A DNA stretch of 19,587 bases from an uncultured Clostridia bacterium (GTDB taxonomy: Bacteria; Bacillota; Clostridia; Christensenellales; Borkfalkiaceae): NCBI GenBank assembly GCA_946637575.1, contig CAMPBJ010000001.1, positions 1 through 19,587 on the forward strand, given 5' to 3'. The notes under the pieces were generated by a model. It had not been told where the DNA came from. It saw nothing but the letters and a program-made list of their open reading frames with translations, and ran no database searches. The stretch's first letter is position 1. Every line of letters starts with the position of its first letter. This document shows positions 894-16,169 of the stretch, piece by piece. Both the position numbers and the translations under genes were made by a program.

Positions 894-2156
894 TTAATTA
901 TTTTTATCTTCTTTTGCTTGATCCTTCGCCTTTTCTGCCTTTTTCTTTTTGCCGAAAAGTTTAGCGAACAGGCCTTTCTTTTCTTGTTCTATAATCGTAA
1001 CGTTGTCTTCGTCAAGCGATTTTGTCACTTCTATTTCTTCATATTCGCAATAGTCGGGGGTTATCGCTTTAGTAGTAGTTTCGTTAAAGAAGCGCGCGTA
1101 GGGATATTCAATAGCAACCTTAACAACGTCTTTTTCTTTTATTTCGTATTTATTCGGCACTTTCATTATTACGTCAATATCGCCGACTTTGCCGTGAACG
1201 TTAAGTATATCGCCTAATAATTCAACTATGCCTACTTTGATTTCAAATGCGGCGTCTTTAAACTGTGCAAAACGCTCGTCCTTTTCAAATATAAGATTTT
1301 CGGGACGAATACCGTATACAAACTTTTTCCCTTCGTAATTTTTAAGAAGTTCCTTTTGTTCCGGAAGCATTTTTACTTTTTGGTCGCTGCCCTTGATCGT
1401 GAACTCGCCGTTTTCCATTGTACCGTATAAAAAGTTCATAGCGGGCGTTCCTATAAATCCGGCAACGAAAAGATTTGCGGGATGATGATATACTTCGTTC
1501 GGCGTGCCTATCTGTTGAATAAATCCGTCTTTCATAACTACGATACGAGACGCCATCGTCATAGCTTCTATCTGGTCGTGAGTGACGTATATCGTGGTTG
1601 CGCCTACTTCTTCGTGTATACGTACTATCTCACTACGCATGGCAACACGGAGTTTTGCGTCTAAGTTCGACAAAGGTTCGTCCATTAAGAAAACCTTCGG
1701 CCTTCTTACTATCGAACGCCCGAGCGCAACTCTCTGCCTCTGACCGCCGGAAAGATTACGCGGTTTTCTGTCAAGATAAGGCGTTAACCTTAAAATTGCG
1801 GCCGCTTCCTGAACTCTTCTGTTTATTTCGTCCTTGGGTACTTTACGCAGTTTCAATGCGTATGCCATGTTGTTATAAACGGTCATTTGCGGGTATAACG
1901 CATATGATTGGAATACCATCGCTATATCTCTGTCTTTCGGCGCGGCATTGTTCATGAGTTTACCGTCTATGTACAACTCGCCGTAAGTTATCTCTTCTAA
2001 CCCCGCAACCATTCTTAACGTAGTTGATTTTCCGCAACCGGAAGGCCCTACGAATACAATAAATTCACCGTCCTGAATATCTATGTTGAAATCGTGAACG
2101 GAGTGAACTCCACCGTCATAAATCTTGTTTACGTTGACTAATTTAACGCTCGCCAT
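894..2156 (-). CDS. UgpC/MsmK-type sugar ABC transporter ATPase
   Basis: This is the ATP-hydrolysing subunit of a carbohydrate importer, acting at the cytosolic face of the membrane. Visible motifs are Walker [10 protein letters not shown] (residues 37-45), the Q-loop in [10 protein letters not shown] (81-90), signature LSGGQ (135-139), Walker B with MDE (158-160), the D-loop NLDA and H193 of the switch. After about residue 235 comes the TOBE/OB-fold regulatory region seen in MalK, UgpC and MsmK proteins. It is the last gene of the operon and starts one base after the fructokinase stop, so it is translationally coupled. Family members are usually about 365-370 aa. This one has roughly 50 extra residues, acidic then ending [17 protein letters not shown], a lysine-rich, partly amphipathic tail. 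LplB-type importers often borrow a shared ATPase from elsewhere, so a linked one is notable. Confidence 0.95.
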
Positions 2157-2157
2157 C

Positions 2158-3117
2158 TCATTTTACCGCCTTTTCAATATTTTCTTTGTTGCCCATGGCC
2201 GCTATCGCACCATGGCTCATCGTTGTATACGCTCCGCATTTACACGCGAAGTCGAGTATTTTACCTAAATATTCTTTAATTGTATCTAAACTGTTCGGCG
2301 TTGCCCCTTTTTCCATCAGTTCGGAAATAAATCCTCCGAAACAGGAATCGCCAGCGCCCGTAGTGTCAACGGCCTTTACTTTGTACCCGCCGTTTTCGGC
2401 AATCAATTCGCCTTTATAATAAACCTTCGCTCCCTTTGCTCCGTCGGTTAAAAGCAGTATCTTTAACCCGCCTTTACATATCTCTTTTACCGCTTCTTCT
2501 CCGCAAAGATCGGTTATAAACTCTAACTCGTCTACACCCACCTTTATAACGTCGGCATACGTTGCGAACTTACGAACGGTATTTTTCAGTTCATCTTTAT
2601 TTTCCCAAAGGTTAAACCGTAAGTTAGGATCGAAACACACTAACGCGCCCGATTCTTTTGCCTTATCGATAAGATACTTATGTGTCTTTCTGGAAACTTC
2701 GGTTTTCAGCGCTACGCTGCCGTATTCAAGTATATCGCCTTTATTAAACTTAACGTCTTTAAAGTCTGTTTCGTTTATATAAAGATCCGCAGCGGTGCGC
2801 CTATAAAAACTGAACTCCCGCTCTCCGCCTTCCAAAAAACTTACGAATGCCAGCGAAGTGTCGTGATCTTTACTCTGCGATATGTAAGAAACGTCCACAC
2901 CTTCAGCTTTTAGCGTGTCGATCAGAAAACTTCCGAAATCGTCCGCACCGACTTTTGTGAGATATGCGCTTTCCTTACCGAGCTTAGTCGCCTGAACGCA
3001 CACGTTCGCAGGTGCCCCGCCCGCTTTTTTAACAAATTCGGCCGTATCTTTCAGCGGCGATATCCCTACTGCTTGAAAATCTATAAGCAGTTCGCCCACA
3101 CAGTATAATTTACTCAT
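2158..3117 (-). CDS. PfkB-family sugar kinase, probable fructokinase
   Basis: This is a cytosolic ribokinase/PfkB-fold kinase of 319 aa, a normal length. It shows the N-terminal GELLIDF, the GGAPANV glycine motif (residues 33-39) of PfkB signature 1, and [13 protein letters not shown] near the C-terminus (251-263). That last motif holds the anion hole and catalytic base Asp257. The sequence style and its place next to two GH32-type glycosidases make fructose (to fructose 6-phosphate) the likely substrate; 2-keto-3-deoxygluconate or another ketose cannot be excluded. The start codon lies inside the end of the upstream GH32-like gene (8-nt overlap, ATGAGTAA), with a GGGAGTG ribosome site within that gene. 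The downstream ATPase follows after 1 nt. Confidence 0.9.
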
Positions 3118-4618
3118 AGAATTTCACTCCCTTAAAGGTAGATTCCGCGTCGTTTGAATAAAACGCAAAGTTTGACTTTGGCATATCCGTTATTCTCGCC
3201 GTCAAGGCGATTTCGCCGTTAAGATACGTCGTAATCAACTCGCCGTCGATAATTATATCTACATTGTACGTTGCGTTTTCTTCGAACGGAAAAGCGACTT
3301 GCGCCAGCGGTGAGCCGTAACGTAAGATATTTGAAACTCCGTTAAAACAAACCAATCTGTTGTTGTCGAGATCGAACGCTAATACAGCGCTTCCCAAACG
3401 GTTATCGTATAAACCGGAAATACCGAAAGTAAGACCTGCGTTGCCGGATAAATCTTTCGTTTCCAGCGTCATGGAAATGCGAGTGACGTTTTCGGAAAGT
3501 TTATCGAGACAATATGCCGTAAAACCTTCTCCGTCGAAGGTAAATTCCGTTGCGGCTTTTCCGTCTGACGTTTTATATGAAACCTTATGTGAGAAATAAT
3601 CTTTATAATTTTGCGGCATTACCGCGAACAATTCTCCGTTATCAGCTTGCCTTAATTCGTTCGTAACGAGATTTCCGCCCCAGTCGAATCCGCCCGAAGA
3701 ACCGCCAGTAAGTCTTGCGCACCAAGCAAACGCAAACAATTTATCGCCCGCCTTTTCTAGTCTGCCGGCATAGAAACCGCTTGCGTCTATACTGTCTCTT
3801 TCGAATTTTTGCCATGCGCCGTCGTGCGAAGTCTTATAACGGTAATGCGTTACCCTGTTATCGCCCTGTTCGCTATACGCTAAATAATAATAGCCGTTGT
3901 ATTCGATAAACGAAGGACATTCCATATTGTAAGAACCTTCGTCGTTAGTGAAAAAGTTATCTACAAACGCCCATTCCGATGAGGTTGCGTTTAAGTTTGT
4001 TGATGAGAACCTTCGTATAACCGCATTGCCGTAATCACGACTTGTAACTAACATGTAATACGTTGCATCGACCGAGTCGTAATAAACGTACGGATCACGG
4101 AAGTCGTTTTCATAACCGTAAAGCAAAAACTCTTCGTCTTTCACCCAGGTATTTTGACCATCGTTGCTCGTTGCGTGACGAACTACTTCGTTATACGGCA
4201 AGCCTTCGGATTGTCCGCTGTCGTTATGGCCGGTGTAGAAACAGTGATAAACGCCTTCCGCATCCTTTATAAACGACCCGGTACCGAGCGATGCATCGAC
4301 CGATGAAACGTTTTCTTCAAAATCGAGCGCAATGCCGTTATCAGTATAATGAATATAATCCGACGTGGATATGCGTGCTATCGGGTGGTAAAAAAGGCTG
4401 TTCGTACCTGTGCTGTTGCGTAAATGATAGATATTCATTACACCGTCGTCATAAAAAGGCATAACGTCGCCCATTGTGATAACGAGCGAATCTTCCGTAG
4501 AAGACGCGGGAAATACGTTTGCACCGCTCTGATCAATGACTGCCGTTCCCTTGGCGGAACACGCTGCCGTAAAACATAGCGATATAGCAATTACTATTAT
4601 GCTTAATAACTTTTTCAT
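3110..4618 (-). CDS. Surface lipoprotein, divergent GH32-like glycosidase
   Basis: This is a predicted extracellular enzyme of 502 aa anchored by a lipid. A signal peptide ends in the lipobox TAAC with Cys20. The middle is a five-bladed propeller of the GH32/GH43 type: FRDP (173-176, transition-state stabiliser D175) and ECPS (E233, acid/base) are clear. The usual WMNDPNG nucleophile motif is missing; in its place is MGDVMPFYDDG with D51 as the probable nucleophile. A C-terminal beta-sandwich (about 355-502) resembles the GH32 C-terminal or CBM66-like module. The likely role is cutting beta-fructan or fructo-oligosaccharide outside the cell. It overlaps the preceding GH32 gene by four bases (ATGA). 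The fold assignment is good; the substrate is inferred from the neighbours. Confidence 0.8.
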   Translation of the reverse strand: MKKLLSIIVIAISLCFTAACSAKGTAVIDQSGANVFPASSTEDSLVITMGDVMPFYDDGVMNIYHLRNSTGTNSLFYHPIARISTSDYIHYTDNGIALDFEENVSSVDASLGTGSFIKDAEGVYHCFYTGHNDSGQSEGLPYNEVVRHATSNDGQNTWVKDEEFLLYGYENDFRDPYVYYDSVDATYYMLVTSRDYGNAVIRRFSSTNLNATSSEWAFVDNFFTNDEGSYNMECPSFIEYNGYYYLAYSEQGDNRVTHYRYKTSHDGAWQKFERDSIDASGFYAGRLEKAGDKLFAFAWCARLTGGSSGGFDWGGNLVTNELRQADNGELFAVMPQNYKDYFSHKVSYKTSDGKAATEFTFDGEGFTAYCLDKLSENVTRISMTLETKDLSGNAGLTFGISGLYDNRLGSAVLAFDLDNNRLVCFNGVSNILRYGSPLAQVAFPFEENATYNVDIIIDGELITTYLNGEIALTARITDMPKSNFAFYSNDAESTFKGVKFYE

Positions 4619-5976
4619 TGTTTTTTACCTATTTCTTTTATTATTAGATTGAAGATATTTCCGCGTGTTTTAATGGAATAATCCCCTTCTATATAAATTC
4701 TGCTACTGATGACTTCTCTGCCGTTGTCGACGAAAACTTCGATACTCGAAACGTCTAACAGAATTCTTACGTCACAATCGACGAATCGCCCGTTCGTCTT
4801 TCTGATACATCCGTAAAGGTTGTTGCTTTTAGTCGTGTCAACGTATACTTCGCCGTCCTTTTTTACGCTTACGCTTCCGTTGCTGCCGAAAATCGTAATC
4901 TCTCCGTCACCTTTGAACTTAAAGCGTATATCCGAACATTTAGGAACTACACCGGTCTCTACGTCTACAAGATAACCGTCCAGGGTTTTAACGGGACTTT
5001 GGAAAATATCGCCGTCTTTTATAGTTATTTCTCTGGGGATTGAGAACGCACCTACCCAACCGTGATTTTTTTCATGAGTATAGTACTTTCTCTCCCACAT
5101 TTCCATCCAACCGATTATAATCGGCTTGTTCTCCCCGCGAATAAACTGCGGTGCGTAAAAGGCTTCGCCTTTATCGATTTCCTTTATGTAATCGACTTTC
5201 ATCAATCTGTTAGTAAAGTCTATTTCTCCTACTACGAATACGCTGGAGTTTACGTTCTTAAAATCGTTACCTCTCGGCAAAACCGAACATCCCGAAACTA
5301 CTAAAACGTCTTTATCGCCTATACGGAAATAACTGGGGCATTCGCCCATATTGCCTAACTCGTAAAAAGGACCTATCGTAAAATCGTAATGCAGTCTATC
5401 GGTAGATTTTCCGCTTAATACCACGATAACACCAGCATTTAGATTTACGTCCTTCCCTCCGACGAAAACGTAGTAAATATCTCCTATCTTTACCGGACAC
5501 GGATCGCGGAAGTCCGCTCTGCTCAAATTCTGCGGCAGATATTCGTTATCGAATACCTTAACACCCTTGTCAAAACTGAATCCGTTTTCAGATACGGCTT
5601 TATATACTTCTTCGCTTTTACCTTCTTCGGTTTCGATATGCAGAGTATAAAACGCATGTATCTTACCGTGGTGTTCTATCGCGCCGCCGGAATACGCGCT
5701 TGCGTTCTCCGTATCGGGCTTTAAGGCTACTCCGTCGTCCAAGTATTCTATCAGGTCGCTCGAAACAAAATGCCCCCAGCACATCTGCCCCGGTCTGCTC
5801 GCATAAGGGTTAAACTGATAATATAGATGATATCTACCCTTAAAATAGATTAAACCGTTCGGGTCGTTAAGCCAGCCTATCGGCGGCATCATATGATAAT
5901 TTAATCTGTATTCGTTGTTTACGGTTCTTTTGAACTGTGCGATGTAACTATTTGCTTGCCTTATCTTTTCAGTCAT
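4615..5976 (-). CDS. Cytosolic GH32 beta-fructosidase/sucrose hydrolase
   Basis: This is a glycoside hydrolase family 32 enzyme of 453 aa, typical length, without a signal peptide, so cytosolic. All family signatures are canonical: WLNDPNG (residues 35-41, nucleophile D38), YQFNPYAS (53-60), WGHFVSSDL (67-75), FRDP (156-159, D158) and ECPS (E212 acid/base). The C-terminal beta-sandwich carries the usual SSIEVFVDNG. It would release fructose from imported fructo-oligosaccharides or sucrose, feeding the kinase two genes downstream. A hydrolase for phosphorylated sucrose is unlikely because import here is by ABC transporter, not PTS. The start lies 16 nt after the upstream lipoprotein gene with a GAAGG-type ribosome site. 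The stop overlaps the next start (ATGA). Confidence 0.95.
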   Translation of the reverse strand: MTEKIRQANSYIAQFKRTVNNEYRLNYHMMPPIGWLNDPNGLIYFKGRYHLYYQFNPYASRPGQMCWGHFVSSDLIEYLDDGVALKPDTENASAYSGGAIEHHGKIHAFYTLHIETEEGKSEEVYKAVSENGFSFDKGVKVFDNEYLPQNLSRADFRDPCPVKIGDIYYVFVGGKDVNLNAGVIVVLSGKSTDRLHYDFTIGPFYELGNMGECPSYFRIGDKDVLVVSGCSVLPRGNDFKNVNSSVFVVGEIDFTNRLMKVDYIKEIDKGEAFYAPQFIRGENKPIIIGWMEMWERKYYTHEKNHGWVGAFSIPREITIKDGDIFQSPVKTLDGYLVDVETGVVPKCSDIRFKFKGDGEITIFGSNGSVSVKKDGEVYVDTTKSNNLYGCIRKTNGRFVDCDVRILLDVSSIEVFVDNGREVISSRIYIEGDYSIKTRGNIFNLIIKEIGKKQ

Positions 5977-5992
5977 TGAAATTTGCCTTCTG

Positions 5993-7660
5993 TCAGTTGT
6001 CGAGTTCGTTGTTTTTTAGACTTATTCTTATATCGCTTATTTCCACTGTTACGTCGTTGTTCGCTTGGTTCGCTATCGAGCCGAACTGCCATACAAGCGT
6101 GTAATTCCTATCGGAAGCGCTTCCGTTGCCGAAGAAAGTGTATATCGTATCTTCTTCCGAAAGCGTTACCTTGTGCCACATAAGCGTGGGATCCCAACCG
6201 CCAGCAACGGGCGCAGCTATTACCATTTCGATAGGCGCGGTCGCTTTCGCTTTAAACGATATTGCGTAATTGCTGCCGCTTCCCGAAATGAAAAACGTGG
6301 GACTGGTTATAGTATGTTCGTTATCTATATTAGAAAAACTGTTTATAACGTAAGTGAAATTACCCCTGTCCGAACTGAACGTGCAGTCGTATTTGTCGTT
6401 ATGGAATTCCGAGAAATCTTCAATCGCAAAGGTGTCTTTACCTGTCGGTTCGAGTTTTTCTTTCACGCTTAAATTCGAAAGCGTTATCGTATTTACAGCC
6501 GTGCCTGACTGAACGTATATCCATAAAGCGCCGGCAGTATTTTCTTCTACGGTTATCTCATTTTCTACTCTGCCGTCAGCAGGGGTATATACGGTTACGA
6601 ACTTGTGTTCGTTCCACTGTCCGCGTTGTATGATTACTTCGTAATCGTTATCATTGACACTTTCTACGTCAAATCCTATCGTATAACTTACGCCCGCTCT
6701 TAATTGAATATCCGTATTGATAAACATACCGCCGCGCCAAATATCCGCGCACGTATCGGTTATCTCTAAACGTGCGGCTTCTCCGCCGTTTTCCGACCAA
6801 GCGTTGCCCTTTAAATTATTGTTTCCGTTATCGTTATCTATTCTCGGGACAACTCTGCCGATAAAGCTGAAATCTTCCGCAAGTTCCACGAGTTTGCCCG
6901 CTTCCTGCGGATACTCGTATTCGACACCCGTGACAACCCATTGAACGTCGCCAAGTCCACCGAAACATATCGCTATTTCTACGTTGCGGTCTTCCTCGTC
7001 ACCTGTATTCCAAACCGTATGTTTGAAAGTCAAAACATTTTCGCCTTCGCTAACCGACATTTCGGCACAGTCTTCACCGTCCGCAGTCGCCTTTATTTTA
7101 CCTGAAACGTTTGACGTTAGTTTGTATATGAAAGTGTATTCTAAATCTGTTTTCAAATTATAGGAACGGAGAAGTTTCATATCCTCCGCAATCTCTCCGC
7201 CGGTTGCGTTTATCACAAAACTGCCGTTGATCATTCCGCATTTTTCTACCGTCGCCACACCTTCCGTTTCCACAGAAAATCCTTCCGGCATAACGAAAGT
7301 TTTATATACTTCACGGTCTACGACATCGACGTAGGATTTTTTCTGCGACGTTCTGCCTTTGCTATCCGTTATCTTATAATTTACGGTGTATTCGCCGACT
7401 TCGGTAAACGTAGCGTAGCCGTTTTTCACTTGCACTTCGGGTGAAACGGTTATGTCAAGCTGCGGCGTAATATCGCCGTCTTCAACGTCAAGCGCCGCAA
7501 TACCGTCGAGAAAATCCACAGTAGTGTTCACAATGCACTGAATATCCTTTATGCCCACCAAAGAAGGCGCTTTATTAGTGCCGGTTTGCGCCGAACTCGT
7601 ACAGCCGGCCAGCATTACCGCACCCGTTAAAAGCAATATCATTATCTTCGTTTTTTTCAT
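5993..7660 (-). CDS. Lipoprotein with Ig-like and CBM-like domains
   Basis: This is a secreted lipoprotein of 555 aa. The signal peptide ends LAGC (Cys20). Residues about 32-113 look like a bacterial Ig-like domain of the DUF5011/Cry22-like type (typical VEDGDITPQL, then GEYTVNYKITDSKGRTS). It is followed by about three beta-rich jelly-roll-like segments (about 118-258, 259-405, 415-555) resembling carbohydrate-binding modules of the CBM4/9 style, with motifs such as AGVSYTIGFDVE and YAISFKAKA. No catalytic motif is seen. In this operon it is best read as a surface glycan-binding protein that holds fructan near the importer. This is an inference; the binding specificity cannot be seen. It overlaps the upstream DUF624 gene by four bases. 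Confidence 0.75.
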   Translation of the reverse strand: MKKTKIMILLLTGAVMLAGCTSSAQTGTNKAPSLVGIKDIQCIVNTTVDFLDGIAALDVEDGDITPQLDITVSPEVQVKNGYATFTEVGEYTVNYKITDSKGRTSQKKSYVDVVDREVYKTFVMPEGFSVETEGVATVEKCGMINGSFVINATGGEIAEDMKLLRSYNLKTDLEYTFIYKLTSNVSGKIKATADGEDCAEMSVSEGENVLTFKHTVWNTGDEEDRNVEIAICFGGLGDVQWVVTGVEYEYPQEAGKLVELAEDFSFIGRVVPRIDNDNGNNNLKGNAWSENGGEAARLEITDTCADIWRGGMFINTDIQLRAGVSYTIGFDVESVNDNDYEVIIQRGQWNEHKFVTVYTPADGRVENEITVEENTAGALWIYVQSGTAVNTITLSNLSVKEKLEPTGKDTFAIEDFSEFHNDKYDCTFSSDRGNFTYVINSFSNIDNEHTITSPTFFISGSGSNYAISFKAKATAPIEMVIAAPVAGGWDPTLMWHKVTLSEEDTIYTFFGNGSASDRNYTLVWQFGSIANQANNDVTVEISDIRISLKNNELDN

Positions 7661-8334
7661 TTTTCTTCTCCGTTTTCGTCGGTACGCCTTATCGCGCCCA
7701 TTTCGTCCAGATAGTCGTCTTCGTTTTGTTTCTTCTTGAGTTCGTAAACGCTTGTTCCCAGCGCTTTCGCTTTTAAGTGTAAGAAGTTCTCTCTCATCAG
7801 CATTGAAGTCAGTAGCGGTGCGGCGTATAGCGTTAATACTACCGCATAGGGATAATACAATATCAATGCGACTACCCCCGCCATCACTCCCACCGCGGCG
7901 ATACTTCGCAACAGTGAACCGAATAGCATCATTACGCCGTTATACAGCAGTTGACGGAAGGTTACGTTCATATTCACTATCACCGTCGGCGCCGTCGCAA
8001 TAAATACTACGCCTACGAATAACGCTATGTATGAAACCGCAAGAACAAACTGATTTATCTTTTCGGGATGCGTATTGAAAAAATAAATGTTCAATACCGG
8101 AAATACTATTATAATCAGCTGAAATACAGTGTAAAAAATAAGTATTTTCCAATTTTCTTTTATCGCAGTAAAAATGTCTTTTATTCTGCGATCGCCCATT
8201 GCGTTCTGAAAAAAACCCGTTACGCCGACTATCATAGGTATAAATCCTATAACGGTAAACGCCGAAAGAGCTACAAGTACGGTTATCACTATAAATTCGG
8301 TAACGTAGTCGCCGAGAACTTTTAACCCTTTCAT
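7657..8334 (-). CDS. DUF624 (YesL-like) membrane protein
   Basis: This is an integral membrane protein of 225 aa with about five hydrophobic segments (roughly residues 11-42, 63-87, 95-125, 133-161 and 163-179) and a charged cytosolic C-terminus. Length, segment pattern and context fit the YesL/DUF624 family, which is regularly encoded with LplB/YtcP-type oligosaccharide importers and whose biochemical role is unknown. It lies 23 nt after the binding-protein gene, and its stop overlaps the start of the following lipoprotein gene (ATGA). The family call rests on pattern and neighbourhood rather than a single diagnostic motif. Confidence 0.75.
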   Translation of the reverse strand: MKGLKVLGDYVTEFIVITVLVALSAFTVIGFIPMIVGVTGFFQNAMGDRRIKDIFTAIKENWKILIFYTVFQLIIIVFPVLNIYFFNTHPEKINQFVLAVSYIALFVGVVFIATAPTVIVNMNVTFRQLLYNGVMMLFGSLLRSIAAVGVMAGVVALILYYPYAVVLTLYAAPLLTSMLMRENFLHLKAKALGTSVYELKKKQNEDDYLDEMGAIRRTDENGEEK

Positions 8335-8357
8335 TTTATGTCCTACCTATAATTAAC

Positions 8358-9965
8358 CTAGTTTATCGCTTCGATATACCTGTTATAAGCCGCTTGGTTA
8401 AGCCTTAAAACAGTGTCTATGGAATCTTTGTTCGTATTCAAAAAGTTCTGCCAAGATTCACGCGTAGGAGTCGAACCGCCCGTAATGCAGCCCGCATACC
8501 AACTCGCAATATTATTGCCGAGCGAAGATTCATAAGTGTTCAACGTCGTTAACTCTTCACGGGTATAATTGAGATTCGGTATCGAAGTCGCCCCTGCGAA
8601 AGTGTACTCTTTTACATAGTTCTCCAAGTTTGAAAGCCTTAACTTCGCACGGGATTCCATTTCAACGTAGTTATCCCAAGTTTCCTTCGCCAAATATACG
8701 ACGCCGTATGGTGCGTTTTTCATTCTAAAGTCGTCTGCACTCTGTTCTCCGTGATCGTCGTTAGGCACCAGCTTCCCGTTCACCTTTTGAGCAAGAAACG
8801 CACCGGACTTTATCGAACCGTAGTTCAGTTGCGCCGAATAATCCGGCTCGAAGAACTTATCGAAATAAGACAATAACCCTTCTTTATCTTCGCATGCGTC
8901 AAGTATTACGCAAGCGCCCTTTTCAATTTCGAGTTCGTTGCTTACACCGACGTAGCGCAGTCCCGTTTCGTCGTTGATAAGCGGTTTTACAATAATATAG
9001 TCGTTTCTAACACTCTTATTTAAAACGGTATCCTTTTCCCACCAGTAGAACGCACCGTATCTGCCGTCTTGCCCTCGTGCCAGAAAATCACTTTCGGTTT
9101 GCGTGAACGCAGATGAACGAATAAGTCCCAAACTATACCACTCCGAAAGTTCTCTAACCGCTCTGAACCAGTTTTCGTCTTCTATCGTGAATACTACTTC
9201 GCCGTCTATTATCGTCTTGTGTTCGCGGTTTTCCGCTATACCGAAAGACGCTATCAAATCCGATTCGTTCCCTTGCCAGTTCCCGCTTACGAACGAAAGC
9301 GGAACTTCGTTTGTAGTAGAACCGTTGCCGTCCATATCGAGTTCGTTGAATTTACGCAAAATCGCCTTGAACTCGTTTCTGGTTAAGTCCATTCCGTCGA
9401 CAAGATCGGTTTTCGCTATCGTAACGTCTGTCGGCATATTGCCGTCGTCTATAAGTTTTTCTACCCACTTTTTGTTTATGTACAAAATGTTGGGATAGGA
9501 TTTTAACCCCATTTCTTCAATCCTCGGTAACGAGTAAATATGCCCGTCCGGAGATTTTAACGCTTCAGCTATATCCGGCCTTGCCGTGAGTATTTTACTG
9601 AAATTCGGCATGACGCTGAGATATTGGTCAATCGCGACTATCCTTCCCCTTCTGCCATAGTCGTAAAGTTTAAGGTTGGAAAAACCTGCGTGATAGATAG
9701 CGTCTATTCCCTTTATGCCAACGGGGTCGGTATTGTTCGCATATTGTGTGGACGTGTTATATATCCATTTAACGTCCGTACCCGTATCTTCGGCAAGTTC
9801 CTGAAAAACGGGCATTGTATTGTAATCTTTTACTGCATCTTCTTTAACGGTCAAAACGGTGAACTGATTTGCAGAATTCGTATTCTGTTTGGCAAAAACA
9901 GAAAACATTATTACGCAAACCAGCCAAATTACCGCAACCGATATGCCTATTATCGCTTTCTTCAT
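8358..9965 (-). CDS. ABC transporter sugar-binding protein, N-terminally anchored
   Basis: This is an extracellular family 1 solute-binding protein of 535 aa, in the size range of LplA/YtcQ-type proteins that serve large oligosaccharides. Supporting features are YSLPRIEEMG after the N-lobe, the Ca-site-like DMDGNG (near residue 215) followed by EVPLSF, and many surface aromatics. The N-terminus has one hydrophobic segment (residues 4-25). Its only Cys sits in WLVC, which is not a lipobox since V precedes C, so the protein is probably held by an uncleaved helix or released by signal peptidase I after VFA. This is unlike the lipidated form usual in Gram-positives. It sits directly downstream of the two permeases, as expected. 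Confidence 0.9.
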   Translation of the reverse strand: MKKAIIGISVAVIWLVCVIMFSVFAKQNTNSANQFTVLTVKEDAVKDYNTMPVFQELAEDTGTDVKWIYNTSTQYANNTDPVGIKGIDAIYHAGFSNLKLYDYGRRGRIVAIDQYLSVMPNFSKILTARPDIAEALKSPDGHIYSLPRIEEMGLKSYPNILYINKKWVEKLIDDGNMPTDVTIAKTDLVDGMDLTRNEFKAILRKFNELDMDGNGSTTNEVPLSFVSGNWQGNESDLIASFGIAENREHKTIIDGEVVFTIEDENWFRAVRELSEWYSLGLIRSSAFTQTESDFLARGQDGRYGAFYWWEKDTVLNKSVRNDYIIVKPLINDETGLRYVGVSNELEIEKGACVILDACEDKEGLLSYFDKFFEPDYSAQLNYGSIKSGAFLAQKVNGKLVPNDDHGEQSADDFRMKNAPYGVVYLAKETWDNYVEMESRAKLRLSNLENYVKEYTFAGATSIPNLNYTREELTTLNTYESSLGNNIASWYAGCITGGSTPTRESWQNFLNTNKDSIDTVLRLNQAAYNRYIEAIN

Positions 9966-9977
9966 AAAACCCCCCGC

Positions 9978-10883
9978 CTATTTGAACGATCCGACTAAAA
10001 CGCCCTGACCGAAATGCTTTTCTATCATAGGATACAGAACTAAAATCGGCACCGTCGCCACAATTATGGAAGTAAACTTGATTTGCGTAGCCAGTCGCAT
10101 TTGTTCCAGTACAACTTCGCCTTCGCCGCTGGCGGTAGCATCAAGCAAGCCGTTCAATACCGTTTGCAACGGATAGAACTCTTTATCGATATTGAATATG
10201 TACGCGTCGATATAGTTGTTCCAGTGCCCTACGGCGTAGAATAAAACCATAACGCTGATGATCGACGTAGCGATAGGAAGAATAAGGTCGAAGAACGTTC
10301 TTATCTCGCCTGCGCCGTCTATCGAAGCCGCTTCCAAAACTTCCTTAGGGACGTTCGATTGAAAGAACGACTTACACATAAAGACGTTGTAAACGCTTAC
10401 TCCGCCGCCGATTATGAGAATTAACGGATTTTGATAAAGTCCCAGCGCCCTACACAAGATAACGTAAGGCACAAGTCCGCCGCCGAAAAACATCGTAATA
10501 ATGAGAAGTACCATTATAACCTTCCTGAACGGAAGATAATCGCGGGATAACGCCCAACCGGCAGGTATCGTCAGCGCAACGTTGAAAACGGTGCCGAGCA
10601 ACGTATATGCTAAGGTATTGAAATAACCTCTCCAAACGTCGTCCCTTTGGAAAAGGCTGGCATAACCTTTAAACGTCACCTTTACAGGCGCTATCCATTC
10701 GTCGCCAGTCATTACCGCATCGGCATCCGATATCGACGCAATAACAATGTAATAAAGAGGATAAATGATTATTACAGCCAAAAGGAACAGAATTATTCCG
10801 CATATGGCGTAGTAAACGTAATCGGTTTTACTCTCTTTTATTTTATTTTTCTTTTTCATTGCTTTTATGTCTTTAACATCCAT
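9978..10883 (-). CDS. Sugar ABC transporter permease, YtcP/LplC type
   Basis: This is one of two membrane subunits of the importer (301 aa, about six helices; first helix around residues 24-49). The cytosolic EAA loop that docks on the ATPase is present as EAASIDGAGEIRTFFDLILP (184-203). The closing VLVGSFK matches the characteristic C-terminus of this subfamily. The ATG at 10883 has a weak GGGTGA ribosome site; a second Met eight codons in (MKKKNK) is an alternative start. It follows the other permease by 36 nt and precedes the binding protein by 12 nt. Assignment is by the EAA motif, topology and pairing. Confidence 0.93.
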   Translation of the reverse strand: MDVKDIKAMKKKNKIKESKTDYVYYAICGIILFLLAVIIIYPLYYIVIASISDADAVMTGDEWIAPVKVTFKGYASLFQRDDVWRGYFNTLAYTLLGTVFNVALTIPAGWALSRDYLPFRKVIMVLLIITMFFGGGLVPYVILCRALGLYQNPLILIIGGGVSVYNVFMCKSFFQSNVPKEVLEAASIDGAGEIRTFFDLILPIATSIISVMVLFYAVGHWNNYIDAYIFNIDKEFYPLQTVLNGLLDATASGEGEVVLEQMRLATQIKFTSIIVATVPILVLYPMIEKHFGQGVLVGSFK

Positions 10884-10919
10884 AATAAATCACCCGAAAA
10901 AAATTCTCTTCTAAACCGA

Positions 10920-11936
10920 TTACCACATGCTTTGGTTAGCAAGTTTCTTCGACGTAAAGTTAGCGATAACAAGTAATACTACGTTTATAACCGAATTGAA
11001 CAGTCCCGCCGCGGTACCTACGCCGTATTGACCGCCGACTAAACCGAACGTATAAACGTAAGTGGACAAGATTTCACTCGTCGGCAAGTTTCCGCTCGTT
11101 TGCATCAGCAAGACTTTTTCGTAACCGCAATTCATTAAGTTGCCGACCGAAAGAATCATTAACATGACTATCGTAGGCAAAATCGCGGGAAGATCGACGC
11201 TGAATATTCTCTTGAAACGTGAAGCGCCATCTACCTTAGCCGCTTCATGAAGTGCCGGATCTACGCCCGAAAGCGCCGCAAGATAGATAATAGCCGACCA
11301 ACCGAAGTCCTGCCAGTTTCCCGAGAAAATAAACAACGGTCTGAACGCTTCGGGAGAAAGGAATAACTTTAACCCGTTAACGTCCCCGCCCATTTTTATG
11401 CTCAACTGATCCAAAAGTCCGTCTGAACCGAAAATAAGTTTCAACATACCGACTAATACTACCAGCGAAATAAAGTGAGGCGCATAATAAAGTATCTGTA
11501 AACCTTTCTTCACTTTCTTCGAACGCAACGAGTTCAGCAAAAGCGCTACTATTATCGGTAACGGGAACCCTATTATAAAACCGAAAATACATAATATGAA
11601 CGTATTCATAAAATAATCCCAGAAATTAGGATTTGAAAAGAACGTTCGGAAATTTTCAAAACCTACCCATACCGTTCCGCTGCCTACGATTTGGTCGCCC
11701 GGCATATAATCCTGAAACGCTACCAGTATGCCGTACATCGGTATGTAGCAGAAAATAATAACGTAGACAAGCGCGGGAAGAATAAATACGAGTATCCAGC
11801 CTCTCTTTTTAAAATTAGCCTTCCACTTTTCCCACTTTGACGTTTTATTAGGTTGTTCCGACGTGCCGTCCATCACCTCATAAGCCTGATCTATAAGATC
11901 TTGGTTGTCGGATATGGTATTCGTGTTTGTCGCCAT
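10920..11936 (-). CDS. Sugar ABC transporter permease, LplB type
   Basis: This is the second membrane subunit of the importer (338 aa). A polar N-terminal extension of about 45 residues precedes the first helix (about 47-72), which contains the typical ILPALVYVIIFCYIPMYGI pattern. The EAA loop reads EAAKVDGASRFKRIFSVDLP (231-250). Six transmembrane helices are predicted by eye. A run of eight G just upstream of the ATG acts as ribosome site. LplB/LplC-type pairs import oligosaccharides, often complex plant or host glycans. With GH32 enzymes downstream, fructo-oligosaccharides are the likely cargo (inference). Confidence 0.93.
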   Translation of the reverse strand: MATNTNTISDNQDLIDQAYEVMDGTSEQPNKTSKWEKWKANFKKRGWILVFILPALVYVIIFCYIPMYGILVAFQDYMPGDQIVGSGTVWVGFENFRTFFSNPNFWDYFMNTFILCIFGFIIGFPLPIIVALLLNSLRSKKVKKGLQILYYAPHFISLVVLVGMLKLIFGSDGLLDQLSIKMGGDVNGLKLFLSPEAFRPLFIFSGNWQDFGWSAIIYLAALSGVDPALHEAAKVDGASRFKRIFSVDLPAILPTIVMLMILSVGNLMNCGYEKVLLMQTSGNLPTSEILSTYVYTFGLVGGQYGVGTAAGLFNSVINVVLLVIANFTSKKLANQSMW

Positions 11937-11974
11937 AATTTTACCCCCCCCTTTAATTAAGTATTGCCAAGCGC

Positions 11975-13048
11975 TTACGCTTTGGACTTTTTATATACGG
12001 TAAACGCTACGTACGCAAGTATAAGCGATCCGAAAATCGCTACGTCTATCCAGAAGAACAGGTGATTAGATACGGCTTTAGGTTCCGTCATCGTTTCGAC
12101 TGTTTCGGAAATATTAAAAGTTGTTTCAGGTCTACCTGCGTTCGTATAAAGCTTAACTACGTGATTGCCCGAAACCAAACTGTCGGCGTCTTCCGCCGCA
12201 ATCTTTACTAGCTTACCGTTCTGCGTAAAATCAAAATCTTTTTCATCTACGGTTACTTTCGTTACCGTCGCCGATGCGCTCATTTCTATCGAAACGTCAC
12301 TGTTGCGGTAGTATTTTTCTACGACCGAATATGCCGTTATAGGCGTAAAATCCGTAGTTATTTCAAAGTTAAGATCGGTAAAAGAAGTCACTACCCTGAA
12401 GGAGTACGTTTTATCCGCTTCAAGCGTGGAAAGATAATTTTCGGAAACGGTTAAAACGCCGTTCACAACCGTATAGTCGTCATTTGTAAGTTTGTAATTC
12501 CCGTCCGTCAGGTTTACGACTTTCAACACCTCGTACCCCAAACAGAAAATATCGCCGTCTAATACGTCGGTGCGGTATAGCAAAACGCCGCTAACCGCAA
12601 TTTCTTCGTCGGCAATGACGTTTACACTACCTTCGACTTTACCCGTTGCACATACTAAAACCGCAACGTCGTTGTCGTCAAGATAAATCTTGGCGATACC
12701 TTCGTTTAAAACAAGCGACAACTTAAATTTTTTGCTTTCCTGAAATTCGTGCTCAACCTTTTTTAAATCGGTAGAATCGGATTTACGCAAACTTACGTAA
12801 TTTTCCTTGACGTTTGCCACTGCGGCGAAAACCGTTTCGTCTTTGCCGAATACTATTTTTACTTCATCCGCACCGCTTTCCGGCGTGAATTCCGCAGAAA
12901 AAATAAAGTTTGCCGTGGCATCACCGACGTAAACCGAGTTGTCCGCGACGCAAACTTTCAAGTTGCTAACGGCAAAACTAAAGCAAATCGCCACTATTGC
13001 GACAATTAAACTTGTAAGCAAAAATGTTTTGAACTTAAGCGCTTTCAT
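11975..13048 (-). CDS. Surface protein with C-terminal membrane anchor
   Basis: This is the first gene of the transporter operon, 357 aa, with no recognised family. An N-terminal signal peptide (residues about 7-28, likely cleaved before DNSVYVG) and a C-terminal helix (about 329-351) followed by YKKSKA predict a type I membrane protein with most of the chain outside. Residues about 46-160 form a beta-rich unit (KLSLVLNEGIAKIYLDDNDVA) that recalls the concanavalin-like or CBM66-like sandwich at the end of the GH32-like lipoprotein in this operon. Two further beta-rich, Ig-like units follow (about 165-235 and 240-315). There is no LPXTG. A role in binding sugar or organising the importer at the surface is a guess from context. 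GGAG ribosome site at about 13055. Confidence 0.7.
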   Translation of the reverse strand: MKALKFKTFLLTSLIVAIVAICFSFAVSNLKVCVADNSVYVGDATANFIFSAEFTPESGADEVKIVFGKDETVFAAVANVKENYVSLRKSDSTDLKKVEHEFQESKKFKLSLVLNEGIAKIYLDDNDVAVLVCATGKVEGSVNVIADEEIAVSGVLLYRTDVLDGDIFCLGYEVLKVVNLTDGNYKLTNDDYTVVNGVLTVSENYLSTLEADKTYSFRVVTSFTDLNFEITTDFTPITAYSVVEKYYRNSDVSIEMSASATVTKVTVDEKDFDFTQNGKLVKIAAEDADSLVSGNHVVKLYTNAGRPETTFNISETVETMTEPKAVSNHLFFWIDVAIFGSLILAYVAFTVYKKSKA

Positions 13049-13106
13049 AATATCTCCAAAATGTGCTTAAAGAAAAAACTTTTATTATCTCAAATAATAT
13101 ACAATT

Positions 13107-13135
13107 ATTATAAATTGTGCGTAACAGTATGTCAA
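13107..13135 (-). promoter_or_regulatory. Sigma-A promoter of the fructan operon
   Basis: On the minus strand a consensus -35 TTGACA (13135-13130) and a consensus -10 TATAAT (13112-13107) are separated by exactly 17 nt. The predicted start near 13100 gives a leader of about 52 nt before the first gene. Confidence 0.85.
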
Positions 13136-13154
13136 TCGATACAGAATTCTTTAG

Positions 13155-13166
13155 GCATTTGCAAAC
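13155..13166 (-). promoter_or_regulatory. Putative regulator site S1
   Basis: The plus strand reads GCATTTGCAAAC, nearly identical to two sites next to the LacI gene (GCATTTGCAAAT at 16073, GCATTTGCATAC at 16106). The core ATTTGCAAAY is a near-perfect palindrome. It ends 19 nt upstream of the -35 box, and its centre is near -61.5 if transcription starts 7 nt after the -10. The binding protein is inferred to be the LacI-family regulator encoded at 16170. Confidence 0.6.
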
Positions 13167-13172
13167 TCTTTT

Positions 13173-13210
13173 ATGCCGATAATTTTTGCGTTTGCAAAAA
13201 TTATCGGCAT
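13173..13210 (-). terminator. Perfect 17-bp hairpin between the two transcription units
   Basis: ATGCCGATAATTTTTGC (13173-13189) and its exact reverse complement (13194-13210) surround a 4-nt loop. It lies about 60 nt after the stop of the large lipoprotein gene and just before site S1. Neither strand has a long U-run after the stem, so it may be a weak terminator or a 3'-end stabilising stem that lets some transcription continue into the transporter operon. Confidence 0.55.
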
Positions 13211-13272
13211 TACTGCTTTTTACCTACAGCGTCCTTGCCCGTCCGTAACGACGACAACGCCCCGTTTTTGTA

Positions 13273-15954
13273 TTACTTTTCGTTAATAACTATTTGTATT
13301 CTGCCTTGTTGCCAATCGTCCGCTTCTTTGAAGAGTACGGCGTATACGGTGTCGCCGTAAACTACTTCGACGTCGCGTGCAAGTTCCCAATCGGCTGCAT
13401 TTTCATACAAGTATTCCATACTCTTTGTCTTGCCGTCGGAACCGACAACCAGCAATCTTACCGCAAATCTCGTCGGGCTTTCACCGTCTTGATTTTCACT
13501 GTCCGGCGCATGCGTAAACGTGACTTTTACGTTGAGTTTGGACTGTCCTTCGACAACTAAATATCCTATCGCCGCGTTTTTCCATTCGGAAAGTATCCAG
13601 TCTTTTTTAATGATAACACCGTTTTCTCCGCCCCACTCATATTCGTTTTGAGCGGTCAACGCATTAAACGTGAAGTCGTTTTGATTTTCGCCCTCCCATA
13701 CGTAATCGGTTGCATAGCCGTATACCCAGCCGTTATCTCCGCCGGTTGAGAAATCGTCAAAGTAGTTCGCTACTTCGGTGTTAACCGGTTCTTCCGGTTG
13801 TTCGGGCTCTGTTTGTTCGTCTTTTATCTCGTTAATAACTATTTGTATTCTGCCTTGTTGCCAATCGTCCGCTTCTTTGAAGAGTACGGCGTATACGGTG
13901 TCGCCGTAAACTACTTCGACGTCGCGTGCAAGTTCCCAATCGGCTGCATTTTCATACAAGTATTCCATACTCTTTGTCTTGCCGTCGGAACCGACAACCA
14001 GCAATCTTACCGCAAATCTCGTCGGGCTTTCACCGTCTTGATTTTCACTGTCCGGCGCATGCGTAAACGTGACTTTTACGTTGAGTTTGGACTGTCCTTC
14101 GACAACTAAATATCCTATCGCCGCGTTTTTCCATTCGGAAAGTATCCAGTCTTTTTTAATGATAACACCGTTTTCTCCGCCCCACTCATATTCGTTTTGA
14201 GCGGTCAACGCATTAAACGTGAAGTCGTTTTGATTTTCGCCCTCCCATACGTAATCGGTTGCATAGCCGTATACCCAGCCGTTATCTCCGCCGGTTGAGA
14301 AATCGTCAAAGTAGTTGATAACTCTTTCGATACTCATTGAGAAGTGCCCGTGATAGTAGCCGGCCGATCCTTCGTTAAAGAAAATGACGGATATTCTGCT
14401 GCCTTCTTCAACAGTTACGGTTTTGTCATACGTCCAGGTACTGCTTTCAATACCGCTTATAAAGTCGCAAAGTTGAACCGTGCCGTCTGCTTTTAATATA
14501 TGCAATCTACCGGTTAATCTCGTAACTTCTTCGGAACCGCTGAACGCAACCGAAATATTTACCGTGTTCGTTCTGGGCATAACATACGTGATAACCGCAT
14601 TTGCTCCGCCGCGTTCGTTCTTTATCCAGTCGGCTTTGAGTTCTATTTCGCTTCCGCTGTCAAGCCAAGCGAACTCGCCGGCACTTAATGCGTTAAACGT
14701 AAAGGTGTTGTCGCCGAAGTTAAAGTCGGTAGTATAACCGTATTCCCAACAGTCTTGTGCCGAAAGTTTGAAATCTTCGGTATAGTTCGCTCCGCTGTAT
14801 ACGGTTGTAGGTAATATTTCCGTTCTCGTCGTGCCGCAACCGTTCTTACAGGTGTAAGTCTTTTCGCCGACTTGTGTGGTTGTAGGCTTAGTCGTAATTA
14901 CACCATCGTCAAAGTCGTGATCGCTCATTGCGATTGCTTCAATATATTTTTCACCGCAAACTATACACGTGTATTCTTTTTCGCCTTCTTCGTTACATTT
15001 AGAACCTTTAATAACTTCACCGCCGTTATATAAGTGTAAACATTTTGCGCTTATGCTGACGGACAATGCGCCTTCGGGCTCGCCCGTTCCCGCATTTTCA
15101 AATACTATATGTATTATATCGTTTTTATTAACTTCGAACGCATTTTCGCTAGAATAACTCCATTCTGATTCACCGTTAGGATTAAGCGCTATAACTTCTT
15201 CGCCGACGATTATGTAAGCGTTCAATACGGTATCGCTTTCCGTTCCTTTGAAACTTATTTCAACGTTCGCTTTGGTCTTTTGGGTAAGATCTTGCAAAAA
15301 TTTATACGCTACCACTGCGTTGTTAGACGACTTAACCTGACCTTTAGAAAGTTCAACGCCTTCTGCTTTATAAACACCTTCTTCGGCTGTTTCAATACGG
15401 ACAAACGTAAGTGTGCCGCTCTGTTTGTCAAATGCTGAAGCATAGCCGTATATCCAACCGCTGTTTTCTACTGAGAACTTTTCCGCAAAATCAGTATGCG
15501 CCGGTATCGCTTCTCTCTTCTTGTCGCCACAAACAGTACAGGTAAATTCCTTTTCCCCTGCTGTCAAGAAATCGGCAATTTTAACTACTTCGCCTGCATT
15601 ATAAGTGTGCGCTATCTTTGCAATAGGTTCTTCCTTAGTATGTCCGCAACCTTCTCTTGTACAAGTGTAAGTCATCGTGCCGGTAGTAGTGCAAGTAGGA
15701 TCAGTGGTTACTTCGCCGTCATTCCAACTGTGCGCAATCATGCCTATCGGCGACGTTTTAGTCTGATCACATCCTTCTACCGTACAAGCGTAAGTCATCG
15801 TTCCTTCCGAAAAACACGTTGCTTCTTTTGTTACCCTTCCGCTATCCCATACGTGATCGTGCTCCGGAACACCTTTGCCGCCACAAGCAATCAGCCCCAA
15901 AAGCATACAAGCCGCCATCACTGCCGTAAAAAGTTCAATTAGGATCTTTTTCAT
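13273..15954 (-). CDS. Large repeat-rich surface lipoprotein
   Basis: This lipoprotein has 893 aa from the ATG at 15954, chosen because MKKILIELF follows a GGAGGGG ribosome site and begins a proper signal peptide with lipobox LIAC (Cys24). An upstream in-frame ATG at 16020 would add 22 non-signal residues. Five cysteine-pair repeats of the H-W/Y-GxVT-PTC-GTMTYTC-GC type lie at about 32-72, 74-114, 115-153, 306-343 and 345-385. Four modules of about 150-165 aa follow the pattern FxxxxxxGWxYGY...TFNAL (about 154-304, 389-545, 547-709, 730-893). The last two are identical and joined by the linker EQPEEPVNTEVA. No catalytic motif is visible. The modules are probably beta-sandwich binding domains; a role in capturing glycan at the surface is inferred from its own promoter with the same regulatory site as the transporter operon. 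Confidence 0.85.
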   Translation of the reverse strand: MKKILIELFTAVMAACMLLGLIACGGKGVPEHDHVWDSGRVTKEATCFSEGTMTYACTVEGCDQTKTSPIGMIAHSWNDGEVTTDPTCTTTGTMTYTCTREGCGHTKEEPIAKIAHTYNAGEVVKIADFLTAGEKEFTCTVCGDKKREAIPAHTDFAEKFSVENSGWIYGYASAFDKQSGTLTFVRIETAEEGVYKAEGVELSKGQVKSSNNAVVAYKFLQDLTQKTKANVEISFKGTESDTVLNAYIIVGEEVIALNPNGESEWSYSSENAFEVNKNDIIHIVFENAGTGEPEGALSVSISAKCLHLYNGGEVIKGSKCNEEGEKEYTCIVCGEKYIEAIAMSDHDFDDGVITTKPTTTQVGEKTYTCKNGCGTTRTEILPTTVYSGANYTEDFKLSAQDCWEYGYTTDFNFGDNTFTFNALSAGEFAWLDSGSEIELKADWIKNERGGANAVITYVMPRTNTVNISVAFSGSEEVTRLTGRLHILKADGTVQLCDFISGIESSTWTYDKTVTVEEGSRISVIFFNEGSAGYYHGHFSMSIERVINYFDDFSTGGDNGWVYGYATDYVWEGENQNDFTFNALTAQNEYEWGGENGVIIKKDWILSEWKNAAIGYLVVEGQSKLNVKVTFTHAPDSENQDGESPTRFAVRLLVVGSDGKTKSMEYLYENAADWELARDVEVVYGDTVYAVLFKEADDWQQGRIQIVINEIKDEQTEPEQPEEPVNTEVANYFDDFSTGGDNGWVYGYATDYVWEGENQNDFTFNALTAQNEYEWGGENGVIIKKDWILSEWKNAAIGYLVVEGQSKLNVKVTFTHAPDSENQDGESPTRFAVRLLVVGSDGKTKSMEYLYENAADWELARDVEVVYGDTVYAVLFKEADDWQQGRIQIVINEK
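13280..13767 (-). repeat. 488-bp perfect repeat, copy A
   Basis: By eye this is base-for-base identical to 13829-14316, at a fixed offset of 549 bp. It encodes the last of the four modules of the surface lipoprotein. The identity includes third codon positions, so the duplication is very recent or maintained by gene conversion. Confidence 0.95.
13829..14316 (-). repeat. 488-bp perfect repeat, copy B
   Basis: This copy is identical to 13280-13767 and encodes module three of the lipoprotein. The 61 bp between the copies encode the proline/glutamate-rich linker, so the unit of duplication is a whole module plus linker and keeps the frame (549 = 3 x 183). Confidence 0.95.
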
Positions 15955-16024
15955 ATATCCCCTCCAAAATAATTTTAGTATTACCGAATAAAATTTCTGT
16001 TTATCAGCAAAAACATGCAACTTT

Positions 16025-16053
16025 ATTTTAACTTTTATATAATTCTAGGTCAA
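16025..16053 (-). promoter_or_regulatory. Sigma-A promoter of the large lipoprotein gene
   Basis: On the minus strand TTGACC (16053-16048) and TAAAAT (16030-16025) are separated by 17 nt. The predicted start near 16018 leaves a leader of about 64 nt with a GGAGG ribosome site before the ATG at 15954. Confidence 0.7.
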
Positions 16054-16072
16054 TACAAAAAAACTTTTTTAT

Positions 16073-16084
16073 GCATTTGCAAAT
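16073..16084 (-). promoter_or_regulatory. Putative regulator site S2
   Basis: GCATTTGCAAAT contains the perfect palindrome ATTTGCAAAT. It ends 19 nt upstream of the lipoprotein promoter's -35, exactly the same distance and orientation as site S1 at the transporter promoter, so the centre again falls near -61.5. Confidence 0.65.
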
Positions 16085-16105
16085 TATATATAATTAATAT
16101 TTTTT

Positions 16106-16117
16106 GCATTTGCATAC
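16106..16117 (+). promoter_or_regulatory. Putative regulator site S3
   Basis: GCATTTGCATAC directly abuts the -35 box of the regulator's own promoter, with its centre at about -40.5. It lies 33 bp from site S2, about three helical turns, so both could be bound on one face of the DNA. Confidence 0.55.
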
Positions 16118-16146
16118 TTGACTTGATCATTTAAATAAAATATAAT
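16118..16146 (+). promoter_or_regulatory. Sigma-A promoter of the LacI-family gene
   Basis: TTGACT (16118-16123) and TATAAT (16141-16146) have exactly 17 nt between them. The predicted start is about 16153, only about 17 nt before the ATG, with the ribosome site GGGGGGA (about 16155-16161) near the very 5' end of the transcript. Confidence 0.85.
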
Positions 16147-16169
16147 AGACATTATGGGGGGATATTTTT

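Follow-up and report, generated by a model that had tools for sequence, protein, structure and literature searches.

A LacI-type regulator appears to sit in pairs upstream of fructan-use promoters in many species, in a layout that fits activation better than blocking

The window analysed here, the whole stretch of 19,587 bases at the start of contig CAMPBJ010000001.1 from an uncultured Clostridia bacterium (Borkfalkiaceae), encodes a LacI-family regulator beside a gene cluster read as a pathway for fructan use. Predicted operators of this regulator lie in pairs upstream of the cluster's promoters. Near systems for comparison are LacI-family proteins that act from upstream of the -35 box; statements on them rest on extracts of the cited papers. 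CcpA activates from upstream cre sites in Bacillus subtilis (PMC3463425); in Lactococcus lactis, its activating sites lie at -31 or -21, counted from the -35 box (PMC2329647). With CcpA (B. subtilis ackA, pta and ilvB; L. lactis), as predicted for the present case, a LacI-family dimer sits upstream of the -35 box and depends on the helix face. The distance of -21 or -31 for its cre centres compares with 22-23 or 34 nt here. CcpA is a global regulator, works with phosphorylated HPr and uses CG-centred cre sites (PMC3463425), whereas the regulator described here is local and its operators are mostly A/T-centred. An obligatory 33-bp pair of operators, as found here, is not described for CcpA in these extracts.

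The sites of two further LacI-type proteins, AraQ and MalR1 of Bifidobacterium breve, precede the -35 box of pyk and eno by 15-16 bp; for CcpA, the distance is 14 bp (PMC6882875). Their position upstream of the -35 box is similar and activation is the inference of those authors. They differ in being global, in having 20-bp operators and in a distance that is not fixed between promoters. GalR at the Escherichia coli gal promoters is also a LacI-family dimer near -60, namely at -60.5, and it contacts RNA polymerase there, as is predicted for the present regulator (PMC4693257). Its second operator is internal at +53.5, its operators have 16 bp, and the extract describes no upstream tandem pair. 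Tandem operators of LacI-family regulators were surveyed by Ravcheev et al. (2014): distances between sites peak at 13, 22 and 32 bp, and the latter two were taken as cooperative binding (PMC4052901). The spacing of about 32 bp resembles the 33 bp found here, whereas a link of spacing to a fixed -35 distance, present here, is not described in the part of the survey that was available. Outside the family, the CRP sites of E. coli near -61.5 and -93.5, about 32 bp apart, are similar in position (PMC5957442); CRP belongs to an unrelated family and the two positions to different promoter classes. A literature search by phrases naming LacI-type activators found no paper, which proves no absence.

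Predicted operator pairs at the operon promoters

Three exact copies of GCATTTGCAWAY occur in the window at 13155-13166, 16073-16084 and 16106-16117 (S1, S2 and S3), as listed by an earlier note on this DNA. The window's assembly (1,050,281 bases, 77% complete) has no other exact copy, with about 0.5 expected at even base use. S1 and S2 each lie 19 nt upstream of a -35 box, TTGACA and TTGACC, with 17-nt spacers, again in agreement with the note. The 12-mer was rejected as the operator. The symmetric element is a 14-bp palindrome, TGTGCA-WW-TGCACA, which occurs in pairs and mostly has TT, AA or AT at its centre. Several sites at related loci carry a centre that is flipped relative to the operon (S2 of L025 and the S1-type sites of L102, L103 and L110), so the element behaves as a palindrome, not as the 12-mer. 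Measured from the dyad of the 14-mer, and if transcription is taken to start 7 nt after the -10 box, the centres given in the note as -61.5 (S1, S2) and -40.5 (S3) move to about -58.5 and about -43.5.

S1 has a predicted partner, S0, that the earlier note overlooked (Table 1). The spacing of S0 and S1 equals that of S2 and S3, 33 bp. S0 differs from TGTGCANNTGCACA by three mismatches; 11 positions in the window (0.06%) match this well. A 17-bp hairpin that follows the lipoprotein gene (13173-13210) has S0 exactly at its centre. A scan found it terminator-like on the + strand only; the lipoprotein's strand has no T-run after the hairpin.

In each of ten contigs with an ortholog, the regulator gene had two of these sites upstream. 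The geometry was measured in 31 regulator-upstream regions from genomes and contigs, 20 of them with less than 80% identity to each other. Near-copies are present among the rows, e.g., L018/L032, L022/L028, L023/L030 and L024/L029. The set left out the window itself (L033) and L048, whose helix-turn-helix was missed by the motif of the script; L048 and L017 were measured separately. Pairs of -35 and -10 boxes were picked by best match, which favours consensus boxes, and the assigned -35 box of the regulator is poor in L025, L026 and L035.

Sought between 20 and 45 bp, the spacing of the pair was 33 bp in 28 of the 31 regions, 32 bp in two and 30 bp in one. The proximal centre lay 23 nt from the operon -35 box in 23 regions, 22 nt in seven and 34 nt in one; among the 20 dissimilar regions, these counts were 15, four and one. 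The fixed, helix-phased upstream position known from CcpA is thus found here too, at 22-23 nt from the -35 box in 30/31 regions. The 19-nt spacing for which the earlier note had proposed a conservation check at orthologous promoters corresponds to 16 nt measured from the 14-mer. It recurs in 23/31 regions, with 18 nt (15 nt) in 7/31 and one helical turn more in 1/31, and the idea survived. With the spacing left free between 14 and 79 bp, 17 of the 20 dissimilar regions still had 33 bp and one had 32 bp, while L043 gave 48 and L047 gave 46. Resampled controls (400, first-order) had the 33-bp spacing in 1%, versus 17/20 of the real regions.

The regulator is patchily distributed. A profile search matched 21 of 396 genomes of the same order at 1e-70; among 101 relatives' genomes, two had a match at E 1e-30. 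The window's own genome is included in both counts. The same 396 genomes were scanned for pairs with 8-38 free bases between half-patterns. The scan yielded 21 places, 16 of them at exactly 33 bp. These 16 belong to 13 genomes, of which 12 carry the regulator; two are identical copies in one genome (G428). The thirteenth genome (G411) had no regulator match at E 1e-15, and its contig breaks off within the lipoprotein gene. The remaining five places were spaced differently; their four genomes had no match to such a regulator at E 1e-70. A reversed control pattern had three matches in the 396 genomes (hand count of the listing). Sites, pairing, fixed phase and conservation are accompanied by co-occurrence with the regulator.

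Several clusters have another promoter before accessory or permease genes, like S1 in the window. The motif found nine further sites at such promoters. In seven of them a TTGACA or TTGACG box with a 17-nt spacer lies 23 nt from the centre, and these seven have a partner 33 bp upstream (L021, L099, L102, L103 and L110 among them; weak in L104). The same geometry at differently placed regions is strong evidence that it is functional. Clusters without an S1-type site found by the motif also exist, e.g., L098, L100, L101, L105, L106 and L109. Looping was one option in the earlier note; between S1 and S2/S3 it is not a general mechanism, since L098, L100, L101 and L109 have strong sites only at the divergent promoter. 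In L025 and L026, a 32-bp operator pair (12041-12086 in both) lies before an extra 295-aa gene with a poor -35 box, possibly an activator-dependent member of the regulon.

S3 behaves differently. The note had placed it as a class II activator site of the regulator's own promoter. Its gap to the regulator's -35 box varies from -1 to 39 nt across the 31 regions while the spacing of S2 and S3 stays at 33 bp, and this variability argues against class II activation, which was rejected. In most regions S3 abuts or overlaps the box (gap -1 to 3 nt), and the simplest reading of such positions is that S3 would occlude the box where it abuts it. In L043-L045, the regulator's -35 box is 39 nt from S3, S2 and S3 are still 33 bp apart and S2 is still 23 nt from the operon -35 box. 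The layout is more orderly than the earlier note saw: its upstream-contact half is well supported and its class II half is not.

The regulator and its distant relatives

The helix-turn-helix and the periplasmic-binding-like domain place the protein in the LacI/GalR family (PF00356 with 30.4 bits at a cut-off of 27; PF13377 with 87.7 bits at a cut-off of 26.5). A structure model of moderate confidence (mean predicted local distance difference test score, pLDDT, 78), used only for a view of fold and hinge, best matched structures of PurR, CelR, RbsR and CcpA. The regulator reached no equivalog cut-off in NCBIfam. It is not assigned as a CcpA ortholog, with 61.3 bits against a TIGR01481 cut-off of 442.35.

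The hinge of LacI-family proteins usually has the form YRPNxxARxL. In most of 12 aligned proteins it is roughly YKSxNxxHIxxG here; this segment is poorly conserved and has low model confidence. A hinge with an intercalating leucine on a CG-centred operator is typical of the family, though not universal; here, the centre is TT or AA in most sites. Francke et al. (2008) describe that the hinge leucine is lost together with the central CG of the operator (PMC2329647), and the unusual hinge therefore agrees with the absence of a CG centre. A minority of regulators, 49 of 1303, are reported to have even palindromes around some other central pair (PMC4052901).

The distance rule has limits among distant relatives. 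In the outgroup regulators L017 and L047 (about 40% identity), the motif has drifted, the pair is 30 bp apart and the distance is longer by one helical turn, at 34 nt. In the regulator tree, the loci with 34 nt form one group. L048 (31% identity) departs in its motif, which was picked by eye, and yet has 23 nt and a 31-bp pair. More distant places numbered 24, of which seven were inspected and four measured. These four (L074, L075, L077 and L078; about 30% identity; genomes of 6.4-7.3 Mb from the same phylum, perhaps Paenibacillus-like) have centres at 27, 27, 28 and 28 nt, and L080/L081 have no clean pattern. A universal 23-nt rule for the wider subfamily was therefore rejected; the rule belongs to this group and not to all relatives. 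The four genes are divergent from an LplB-type permease gene and share TGTGCA-like half-sites, with possible further half-sites about 20 bp away (read by eye).

Activation, inhibition and other readings

The fixed, helix-phased upstream distance suggests contact with RNA polymerase. Two regulator dimers would bind side by side on one DNA face, on paired, mostly A/T-centred 14-bp palindromes 33 bp or about three helical turns apart. At each operon promoter, the proximal dimer, whose centre at about -58.5 lies 23 nt before the -35 box, would touch RNA polymerase, most likely via the alpha C-terminal domain. This contact would raise transcription of the lipoprotein, transporter and GH32 genes for fructan use in a class-I-like manner, as with CcpA. 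The distal dimer would bind cooperatively and stabilise the proximal one. In most species the distal site covers or abuts the regulator's -35 box, which would most simply lead to autorepression. A sugar signal probably acts on the regulator. Paired dimers with class-I-like activation of fructan genes are, as a whole, the best explanation, and we give it slightly more than an even chance. For activation as the sign at the operon promoters, taken by itself, the chances are about equal either way. The class I-like position suggested by the earlier note accordingly holds in part: the fixed distance at the operon promoters fits polymerase contact, and the choice between activation and GalR-type inhibition is unsettled. 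It is also possible, with a chance somewhat short of even, that gut Clostridia and Erysipelotrichaceae share a local, sugar-specific LacI-type subfamily of dedicated fructan-operon activators, with paired A/T-centred operators, a non-canonical hinge and a restrained own gene.

Several points weigh against activation by paired dimers. Local regulators of the LacI family are mostly regarded as repressors. In the window, the S1 promoter matches the consensus at 12/12 positions, and five other S1-type promoters do so at 11/12; such near-consensus promoters do not look activator-dependent. In 19 divergent regions, the operon promoters had a mean -35 match of 5.8/6 and a mean -10 match of 4.3/6, and the regulator promoters 4.5/6 and 5.4/6. 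The S1-type sites of the near-copies L025 and L026 have no recognisable -35 box at their 32-bp pair, the S1-type partner in L104 is weak, and the four distant relatives depart from the distance with their 27-28 nt. In L019, the first operon gene contains a site with two mismatches, at 9645 (centre ignored, a looser count). In the literature extracts, local LacI-family regulators of Lactobacillus plantarum are predicted as repressors (PMC2329647), and GalR, bound at -60.5, acts on gal P1 as a repressor through contact (PMC4693257). An araQ mutant of B. breve showed no significant change at predicted activated genes, although the authors regard this as agreeing with their prediction (PMC6882875).

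The foremost alternative keeps the geometry and reverses the sign. The regulator would hold polymerase inactive from upstream, as GalR does at gal P1, and fructan sugars would release it. Release by the cognate sugar is common among LacI-family sugar regulators, and the near-perfect operon -35 boxes and the 12/12 S1 promoter look as if no help were needed. GalR itself represses P1 and activates P2 by contact from -60.5 (PMC4693257). The gal system also has the internal operator at +53.5 (PMC4693257), whereas all 25 sites with at most two mismatches in 11 long main-group loci (L098-L106, L109 and L110) lie in promoter regions (hand count). An internal downstream operator is unlikely here, although the L019 site weakens this argument. 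For Gram-positive LacI-family proteins with sites upstream of the -35 box, the literature describes activation (PMC2329647, PMC3463425, PMC6882875), and we consider contact inhibition rather unlikely.

The same dimer pair may also act as a dual switch that represses without sugar and activates with sugar, with S3 repressing the regulator's promoter. Strong core promoters combined with a rigid upstream contact geometry would suit such a switch, and regulators that change sign are known in other families, e.g., AraC or MerR. The switch is more complex than the data require, and we rate it as improbable.

Autoregulation as the sole purpose of S2 and S3, with S2 helping S3 and an incidental distance to the operon, would agree with the short gap between S3 and the regulator's -35 box in most of the 31 regions. 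It is made very improbable by the same geometry at promoters without a regulator gene (7/9 sites) and by L043-L045, which keep 33 bp and 23 nt despite their distant regulator box. Another DNA-binding protein as the owner of the sites is hardly credible: the match of site and regulator is drawn from sequence and binding is predicted, but the 33-bp pairs sit in regulator-carrying genomes (12/13, the thirteenth with its contig cut) and the operators of outgroup regulators, though drifted, are similarly placed.

The gene cluster and the meaning of the layout

The regulator gene is divergent from a minus-strand cluster in which a large putative lipoprotein gene stands first (Table 1). The probable operon behind it codes for an accessory protein, two ATP-binding cassette (ABC) permeases, a putative solute-binding protein, a small membrane protein, a lipoprotein, two GH32 proteins, a PfkB-type kinase (probable fructokinase) and an ABC ATPase. 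The solute-binding, accessory, small membrane and lipoprotein calls have no Pfam hit and are based on position and sequence. The 895-aa lipoprotein also had no hit in the Pfam scan. Synteny of the cluster was found in L021, L025, L098-L106, L109 and L110, as far as the stretches reach. A blind promoter scan of 12900-16300 ranked the three promoters of Table 1 first, with 12, 11 and 10 matches out of 12. Since promoter-like sites numbered 5 in the scan and 6.5 in shuffles, it supports them by rank only.

Table 1. Positions of genes, predicted operators and promoters in the window
Feature	Position	Strand	Basis or remark
LacI-family regulator, 344 aa	16170..17204	+	Pfam LacI and Peripla_BP_3 above cut-off; orthologs
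Putative secreted lipoprotein, 895 aa	13273..15960	-	lipobox by eye; internal tandem duplication
Probable operon, read as fructan use	894..13048	-	Pfam, sequence, position, synteny
S0, predicted distal partner of S1	13185..13198		TTTGCGTTTGCAAA; 33 bp from S1
S1, proximal operator (predicted) of the transporter-operon promoter	13152..13165		centre 23 nt from TTGACA
S2, operon-proximal operator (predicted) of the divergent pair	16070..16083		14-mer TATGCATTTGCAAA; centre 23 nt from -35 of lipoprotein promoter
S3, distal operator (predicted) of the pair	16103..16116		33 bp from S2; 1 nt from regulator's -35
Transporter-operon promoter TTGACA-17-TATAAT	13107..13135	-	12/12 matches
Surface lipoprotein promoter TTGACC-17-TAAAAT	16025..16053	-	box match and promoter scan
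Regulator promoter TTGACT-17-TATAAT	16118..16146	+	box match and promoter scan

Further features were seen in the window. The tandem duplication in the lipoprotein gene comprises 13267-13566 and 13816-14115, spaced by 549 bp, with 98% identity reported over 300 nt; in the translation, a stretch of roughly 180 aa is repeated. A palindrome resembling a CcpA cre site, TGAAAGCGCTTAAG, with two mismatches at 13034-13047, overlaps the start codon of the first gene of the transporter operon. It may be a chance match or a roadblock for catabolite repression. A tRNA gene lies at 272-356 on the + strand.

Annotation tends to treat sugar regulators of the LacI family as repressors. A rigid, conserved pair of upstream sites may predict the sign of regulation from sequence alone, in a simple system where sign, phase and pairing can be altered one by one. 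If the regulator is an activator, its loss would silence the fructan pathway rather than free it, which would affect models of fructan use by gut Clostridia.

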